Shown here in pieces: positions 8,328-9,851 of a stretch of DNA of 64,000 nucleotides. The translations under genes were made by a program, and so were the position numbers. Where the stretch lies: the NCBI GenBank assembly GCA_022414725.1, contig CM039462.1, forward strand, positions 81,959,805-82,023,804, given 5' to 3'. The stretch's first letter is position 1. Each line of letters opens with the position of its first letter. The stretch is from Microglena sp. YARC (taxonomy: Eukaryota > Chlorophyta > Chlorophyceae > Chlamydomonadales > Chlamydomonadaceae). The notes under the pieces were generated by a model. It made no database searches. It was not told where the DNA came from and was given only the letters and a program-made list of their open reading frames with translations.

Positions 8328-9851
8328 CTAATACATTGGGTGTAGACAGCACTTCTTCAGTGTCTCGTTATACTCTGGATCTGTGTGAACCGACAATCGA
8401 ATGGTTCCATCTACCAGTGTATCACAATCAAAATACATGTAGAGTATATTCATACGGTTTACTGTTGTAGAACTGATGGAGTTTATAACATCCACTAAGC
8501 ATTGTTGACGAACGACAGTCTTTGTGTTCTGCAGTTCACCACCAACCCTGTATGCATGCGGATTATACCGAATAAAATACAATGGCAGTGTGTTGTCATC
8601 GTAGACTAGGGACTCGTAGATGTTAGCCATCCTTTTCATATCACATCCGACCGAGTATTCACCGAATTTATGTTGATTCTCATCGACCTCTAAGAATATA
8701 GCAACCCCGTCTTTGACAATCACGAAATCTATCCTTGCGAATGTAGATCCCATACAGCTAAAGGTTACCTGATGTTCTCTTCTGAAATCAATGCCATTAC
8801 CTTCTAACAGCCTGGCAACCTTTTGCTCTTCTCTTTTCTTCCGCTGTTGATACTCTCCTGTATGCGTCCTTTTGTGTCTAGTCAACTCACCACTCTGAGC
8901 AAATGCAGCACCACATCCATCGAAATCGCATGTAAATGGTTTCTCTCCTGTATGCGTCCTTTTGTGTCTAGTCAACTCACCACTCTGAGCAAATGCAGCA
9001 CCACATCCATCGAAATCGCATGTAAATGGTTTCTTTCCTGTATGCGTCCTTTTGTGTACAATCAAAGTACCACTCTGAGCAAATGCAGCACAACATCCAT
9101 CAAAATCGCATGTAAATGGTTTTTCTCTTGTATGCTTCCTTTTGTGTGTGGTCAATCCACCACTGTTACAAAATGCAGCACCACATCCATCAAAATCGCA
9201 TGTAAATGGTTTCTCTCCTGTATGCCTCCTTTTGTGTACAATCAAGCCACCACTTTGAGCAAATGCAGCACCACATCCATCAAAATCGCATGTAAATGGT
9301 TTTTCTCCTGTATGCTTCCTTTTGTGTTTAGTCAAAGAACCACTTTGAGCAAATGCAGCACCACATCCATCAAAATCGCATGTAAATGGGTTTTCTCCTG
9401 TATGCACCCTTTTGTGTTTAGTCAAAGTACCATTTTGAGCAAATGCAGCACCACATCCATCAAAATCGCATGTAAATTGTTTTTCTCCTGTGTGCGTCCT
9501 TTTGTGTGTGGTCAAGCCACCACTTTGAGCAAATGCAGCACCACATCCATCAAAATCGCATGTAAATGGTCTTTATCCTGTATGCTTCCTTTTGTGTGTG
9601 GTCAAGCCACTTCTGTTACAAAATGCAGCACCACATCCATCAAAATCGCATGTAAATGGTTTTTCTCCTGTGTGCGTCCTTTTGTGTGTGGTCAAGCCAC
9701 AACTTTGAGCAAATGCAGCACCACATCCATCAAAATCGCAAGTAAATGGTTTTTCTCCTGTATGCTTCCTTGTGTGTACAATTAAAGTACCACTACGAGC
9801 AAATGCAGCACCACATCCATCAACTTCACATACGAAGTTCATTGATGACAT
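8328..9851 (-). CDS. Eleven-finger C2H2 protein fused to a Vsr/DUF559-like nuclease domain
   Basis: From ATG at 9851, eleven C2H2 fingers follow in tandem, each 28 residues with linker T-G-E-K-P and core [12 protein letters not shown]. Helices include QSGELTR (twice), QSGTLIV, QSGSLTK and NSGGLTT. After the fingers a basic linker leads to about 180 residues with A-R-I-D-F-V-I-V and F-L-E-V-D-E-N-Q-H, then C-D-M-K-R-M and Y-F-I-R-Y-N-P. That D...E-x-D-x-x-Q-H pattern is that of Vsr/DUF559-type PD-(D/E)XK nucleases. One in-frame TAA (9573-9575), replacing the Glu of a T-G-E-K-P linker, splits the gene after finger 3; otherwise the frame is intact. The likely role is sequence-guided DNA cleavage, by inference from architecture. 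The stop could be a sequencing error or real inactivation. Confidence 0.8.
8855..9845 (-). repeat. 84-bp tandem repeat encoding the zinc fingers
   Basis: About eleven and a half units of 84 bases, nearly identical apart from the codons of the DNA-contacting helix. Low divergence points to recent unit duplication or gene conversion. Confidence 0.9.

Follow-up and report, generated by a model that had tools for sequence, protein, structure and literature searches.

Can a zinc-finger nuclease arise in nature, and if so, what is such a gene doing in the genome of a green alga? The question is raised by a 64,000-nucleotide stretch of Microglena sp. YARC DNA (GenBank assembly GCA_022414725.1, contig CM039462.1, positions 81,959,805 to 82,023,804; hereafter the window), in which a coding stretch on the minus strand joins an array of C2H2 zinc fingers to a C-terminal nuclease-like domain. 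On balance, we interpret this gene as a damaged copy from a natural zinc-finger nuclease family whose genes are free-standing and mobile in a homing-like way. The source genome is eukaryotic, 568 Mb in 2390 contigs with a contig C1 of 194.9 Mb, and a bacterial or phage origin was ruled out because the window belongs to it.

The initial annotation, made from the letters of the window, described eleven C2H2 fingers with TGEKP-type linkers followed by a Vsr/DUF559-like domain. The tandem array and its linkers were recovered with Pfam (Table 1), the helix QSGELTR was located in fingers 10 and 11, and the stretch IDFVI...LEVDENQH lies in the C-terminal domain. The 395-aa open reading frame (ORF) alone matched zf-C2H2 (3.8e-29) and zf-H2C2_2 (1.7e-48). 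Repeat units of 84 bp, which had also been described, were ruled out by the finger spacing, which gives units of 30 aa or 90 bp. The eleven-finger architecture is encoded, but the frame as one intact protein was ruled out by an in-frame TAA after finger 3. The ATG frame contains three fingers only (9573-9851, 92 aa). Fingers 5-11 and the nuclease domain form the 395-aa frame, which is listed from a TTG, an unlikely start codon in a eukaryote. The first Met of the open frame of this copy (L002 in our numbering of loci) is at position 273/414, inside the nuclease domain. Since the TAA blocks read-through from the ATG, the window copy is probably a pseudogene, a family member that has suffered a nonsense mutation.

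The C-terminal domain of ∼175 aa is predicted to be a PD-(D/E)XK nuclease of the Vsr/EDxHD/DUF559 type. The predicted model was confident and PD-(D/E)XK-like, with the catalytic Asp and Glu on adjacent strands. I-Bth0305I and Vsr led the re-aligned list of PDB fold comparisons, and a C2H2 protein encoded by Heterosigma akashiwo virus 01 was matched with a TMq of 0.83. PHROGs returned a homing endonuclease (4.4e-4). In up to 155 homologue rows the D, E, DE and R positions were invariant and the H was near-invariant; loss of the Asp and Glu in homologues, which the initial annotation had named as a refutation of its proposal, was not seen. Against Pfam the window domain matched NERD only, below the curated cut-off (0.037, 15.0 bits vs 22.1). 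Among 25 family members NERD was found in 8 (best 1.8e-4) and MTES_1575 at 0.075, neither amounting to a family assignment. The NCBIfam search of the domain gave no match, and a PDB sequence search gave nothing significant (best 0.2 for a thioredoxin; PvuRts1I at 0.58-0.59). Because no curated model matched above its cut-off, we claim likeness to the superfamily and not membership of a named Pfam family. The nuclease call is based on the model, the fold comparison and the conserved positions, and the domain would cleave DNA.

Relatives were sought outside this genome, including other proteins that combine C2H2 arrays with such a domain, a search suggested by the initial annotation. A single-sequence search of 5.8 billion proteins identified 45 homologues (E<=0.01) and a profile search identified 683 (E<=0.001), of which the best 120 were listed. 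With these numbers the homology is not a matter of chance. The named rows among the matches listed are from Tetrabaena socialis, Klebsormidium nitens and Heterosigma akashiwo, and relatives also occur in metagenomes; a EukProt row labelled Tetstr1 was read as Tetraselmis striata. At least one C2H2 finger was found upstream of the domain in 115/156 rows, and the other 41 may include partial proteins. In two proteins, P0044 and P0045, the nuclease domain is joined not to C2H2 fingers but to PF19114 repeats, which we take to be the EsV-1-7 cysteine motif, so the cutter may be usable with more than one targeting module. Scans of viral contig collections yielded no relative. The scan of a genome contig collection yielded one locus, L001, where a C2H2 plus nuclease relative with 32% identity lies at 9182-10606 (+) on a contig filed as an Opitutaceae metagenome-assembled genome. 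The contig may be of eukaryotic or viral origin and have been placed in a bacterial bin; three ORFs neighbouring the gene had no Pfam match.

Within the Microglena genome the family is large. A search with the nuclease domain produced at least 146 matches (150/166 candidates scored). Near-full-length matches numbered 62, five with an internal stop, and these 62 rows were used for the distance analysis. Thirty loci, L002-L031, were cut out. A locus was classified as intact if the first Met lay <=40 residues from the start of the open frame and the domain was free of stops. By this simple rule 22/30 loci are intact, although L029 has two fingers only and the array of L030 is interrupted by a stop further upstream. 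The remaining loci have a TGA in the domain (L006, L026) or a late first Met (L002, L003, L004, L018, L025, L028). Median dN/dS for the nuclease domain was 0.24 (quartiles 0.19 and 0.28, maximum 0.58), calculated from 343 pairs with dS >0.05 among the 28 stop-free loci of the 30. The domain is under purifying selection.

The fingers are another matter. The frames of the 30 loci contain 2 to 14 fingers each, 233 in total, 201 of them distinct. Entropy was 3.35 bits at helix position -1, 2.85 at +3, 2.35 at an inter-cysteine position, and 2.03 at +6; the zinc ligands did not vary (0 bits). The cutter is conserved and the contact residues vary. The initial annotation had suggested that specificity is being reshuffled. 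Positions -1, +3 and +6 rank among the four most variable of the finger. At +6 pN was 0.435 and pS 0.048, which we take as a measure of diversity and not as proof of positive selection, because pN exceeded pS at several non-contact positions as well and single-codon pS is noisy.

Each nuclease gene forms a compact unit, which either adjoins a replication gene or lies within one. A common 5' end, GAATGAAG[C/T]ATAA, is found 84-121 bp ahead of the ATG in 24/30 loci, and beyond it the groups diverge. It was not found in the other 6, some of which have too little upstream sequence. Being TATA-like, this end may serve as a promoter. A 3' tail motif near GGTTTCTGAAGG is present in 21/30 loci and absent in 9; it ends 33-61 bp past the last codon in 19 loci and 90 bp past it in 2, and is common to copies with different right flanks. 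That the unit has its own ATG, its own stop and a shared 5' end speaks against an intein. An Rfam scan of the window found no family at the gathering score.

Directly behind the tail, homology to a D5-type helicase begins at the protein level in 16/30 loci, and one more such flank was recognized by eye in L021. The homology starts at residue 505, the Walker A Gly, in 13/16 loci and at residues 499, 506 and 514 in the other three. An uninterrupted helicase in L052 reads MIGERNSGKGLLQALNERAWG at the junction, where residue 505 is the Gly of GK, and this aligns with MIGVGGTGKSVL, the Walker A motif of another resident helicase. Genome-wide, uninterrupted helicase copies align from one residue ahead of the Walker A Gly; eight rows with >=84% identity cover the full query span from there in stop-free open frames of >=650 aa. 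The filled-junction pattern had 18 exact matches in the genome, compared with 0 for a reversed control, and 17/18 adjoin a nuclease match, either a copy or a remnant (the exception is C3:48610100). Left breakpoints vary, at helicase residues 88 (L025), 174 (L013) and 220 (L026). Other helicase types form the right flank in L005, L006, L029-L031, L015 and L016. Helicase pieces flanking the units are in general decayed. No protein-level helicase match was obtained in the right flanks of L002-L004, the group that includes the window copy.

The second site is a primase gene. In L037 and L041 the unit splits the primase behind REMR, separating residues 214-215 from 216-219. Both halves of the gene are there, and to the left of the unit lies a rearranged piece of primase; L037 has a second unit further along. 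Other left breakpoints in the primase are at about residue 410 (L017/L046) and residue 206 (L022/L051). Twenty-four uninterrupted primase rows extend from residue 1 to at least 409 in stop-free open frames of >=700 aa, so that occupied and empty sites of one gene were found for the primase as well as for the helicase. The name primase is tentative, being based on a weak PrimPol match (0.015) and on motifs. The stretch behind the unit in L046 matched Herpes_ori_bp (1.9e-22). Proximity was evaluated with 57 helicase and 93 primase rows: 21/62 copies lie within 40 kb of one and 41 do not; for points placed at random on the five largest contigs the share was 2.1%. In the tree the two primase-site copies are nested among helicase-site copies (91/87), as though the site had changed.

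These observations can be joined in one mechanism. The C2H2 array would bind DNA and position the cutter, and the Vsr/EDxHD-type PD-(D/E)XK domain would cut close to the bound site. If the break is repaired from a nuclease-bearing copy, the cut gene would receive the nuclease gene together with its 3' tail and TATA-like leader. The targets would be the D5-type helicase and the primase joined to an origin-binding helicase, in multicopy DNA elements of the genome that appear virus-like and may be viral; they could be polinton-like, virophage-like or left over from larger viruses. The 3' helicase piece could act as a one-sided homology arm, the left end being joined imprecisely. Finally, a change in the finger contact residues would retarget the enzyme. 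We extend this tentatively, and with less assurance than the homing reading itself, to a general proposal: modular C2H2 plus Vsr-type nucleases of algae and giant viruses would spread themselves by homing into replication genes that viruses and virus-like elements cannot do without, and would retarget themselves by finger reshuffling and contact changes.

Several results weigh against homing. The arrays differ among copies sharing one junction, and L012 and L023 have near-identical cutters at the same primase position with different arrays. The binding-site prediction from the helices, proposed in the initial annotation, gave a null result: in a scan of 17 arrays with a crude recognition code, the rank of the Walker A region did not exceed that obtained with shuffled arrays. 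In addition, few origins of the helicase junction would be enough to account for the tree, though left breakpoints differ at one right junction, and some of the pattern could have come about by duplication from a small number of rearranged ancestors.

The initial annotation had also thought of a weapon. In that case a zinc-finger nuclease of virus-like elements, giant viruses or the host would cut rival or invading DNA, its fingers diversifying in an arms race, and the gene would be found in element remnants since it was part of those elements. Close structural relatives in giant viruses, the multicopy virus-like neighbours, the pairing of a cutter under purifying selection with diverse contact residues, and the occupation of the same position by different arrays are all in its favour. 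We nevertheless consider it unlikely, as cargo would be expected between the genes of intact elements and the units instead abut the helicase at Walker A or split the primase. Passive duplication, in which segmental duplication and the amplification of elements, without the nuclease as driver, multiplied one or a few ancient loci where rearrangement had put a nuclease gene beside broken replication genes, would account for the groups with identical flanks (L002-L004, L015/L016), for a tree that fits few origins per flank type, and for the same rearranged piece at the left junction of L037 and L041. It seems improbable to us because the unit ends are common to copies with different left breakpoints, because primase-site copies are nested among helicase-site copies, and because the nuclease is under purifying selection while its helicase flanks decay. 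Dead PD-(D/E)XK folds exist, which speaks for a DNA-binding regulator with a catalytically dead nuclease-like fold, but such a regulator is very improbable here, since a dead domain would not need acidic and His positions kept (near-)invariant across as many as 155 rows that differ widely in fingers and host. Homing remains our preferred reading; what the initial annotation observed is confirmed in part, and its interpretation is supported in part.

Table 1. Features of the window copy and its ends (window positions). Codon coordinates of the conserved positions were derived from a 179-residue domain starting at 8867.
Feature	Position	Strand	Basis
Whole coding stretch: 11 C2H2 fingers and nuclease domain, broken by one in-frame TAA	8328..9851	-	translation
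Array of eleven C2H2 fingers, 90-bp (30-aa) units	8862..9830	-	translation, Pfam, spacing
In-frame TAA in the linker after finger 3	9573..9575 (9575-9573)	-	ORF list and translation
Predicted Vsr/EDxHD/DUF559-type PD-(D/E)XK domain and stop codon	8328..8861	-	invariant columns, model, fold comparison
Conserved domain positions	E 8826-8828, D 8727-8729, E 8688-8690, D-E 8679-8684, H 8670-8672, R 8631-8633	-	
Shared 5' end of unit, GAATGAAGCATAAATAATAT (TATA-like) and leader, 84 bp ahead of the ATG	9852..9935	-	21-copy alignment
Shared 3' tail of unit, containing AAAACCTTCTCGGTTTCTGAAGG (possible small hairpin, by sequence only)	8269..8327	-	
Right flank, similar on visual inspection to a decayed Walker A region of a helicase, common to L003/L004	8241..8268	-	weak

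Just downstream of the nuclease gene is a direct repeat with two identical copies, each >=118 bp long (7691-7808 and 7912-8029). About 2 kb downstream, on the same strand, an ORF at 4761-6350 (-) has a borderline D5_N match (1.5e-4, 22.5 bits vs a cut-off of 22.4). Seven ankyrin-repeat ORFs, all on the minus strand, are located at 1011-2159, 15714-16994, 45033-46709, 47613-49148, 49683-51707, 52301-53440 and 53157-53828; crowding of such ORFs also occurs in giant-virus genomes. One ORF at 43283-44482 (-) contains two matches of the RNA polymerase Rpb3/Rpb11 dimerisation type (7.6e-9 and 1.8e-4) and is perhaps a fused or virus-derived subunit. An ORF at 38789-39952 (+) has a CAP (cysteine-rich secretory) domain (2.8e-20), and a tRNA scan of the window found none. 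Elsewhere, L044 has an ORF at 8386-9045 (-) resembling the T5orf172 (GIY-YIG-type) endonuclease (0.0011, just below the Pfam cut-off), so that homing genes of another kind may also occur close to these elements.

If our reading is correct, zinc-finger nucleases already exist in nature as mobile elements, built with another cutter and with as many as 14 fingers per array. The dozens of paralogues, with near-constant cutters and diverse arrays, would constitute a natural data set for C2H2 specificity and retargeting, and the compact nuclease domain could be of use in genome editing. The parts are already known, and such proteins are already in databases as zinc finger or C2H2 proteins. What appears to be new is the mobility, a homing-like element in which a Vsr-type nuclease is combined with C2H2 fingers. 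Among the matches listed in a search of open-licence PMC articles, none described a natural nuclease of C2H2 plus Vsr/DUF559 architecture or its mobility, which is no proof of absence.

Several known systems share some of these properties. Engineered zinc-finger nucleases have the same order, array first and cutter C-terminal, but their FokI belongs to another nuclease family, and the family described here is natural. The R2 retrotransposon proteins combine natural zinc fingers with a PD-(D/E)XK-type endonuclease and a reverse transcriptase, and R2 was among the Foldseek matches of our domain (E 2.3e-3); no reverse transcriptase was seen in the proteins read from the Microglena family. The EDxHD/Vsr-like homing endonucleases, such as I-Bth0305I, are borne in phage introns and have other DNA-binding parts, I-Bth0305I lacking a C2H2 array. 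Polinton-like viruses carry GIY-YIG and HNH homing endonucleases (PMC12220804; PMC11071308) and are multicopy in protist genomes (PMC10120064). Those endonucleases are likewise in replication genes of protist virus-like elements but belong to other nuclease families, and the terms zinc finger and C2H2 are absent from the main text of PMC12220804. The closest analogue is the WHO/HO group of yeasts. According to PMC7282813, WHO elements are zinc-finger endonuclease genes that lie outside introns, exist as many intact and dead copies, are accompanied by 3' fragments of the target gene starting at about one position, and occasionally move, carrying fragments to other genes. The same source gives their nuclease as the LAGLIDADG/intein type, their fingers as GATA-like (Cys-X-X-Cys) and their target as the host gene FBA1, whereas the family described here has a Vsr-type nuclease, a C2H2 array and replication genes of virus-like elements as its sites. 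Because the nuclease fold and motifs differ from the LAGLIDADG/intein type, we regard the family as WHO-like in behaviour but not as a member of WHO.
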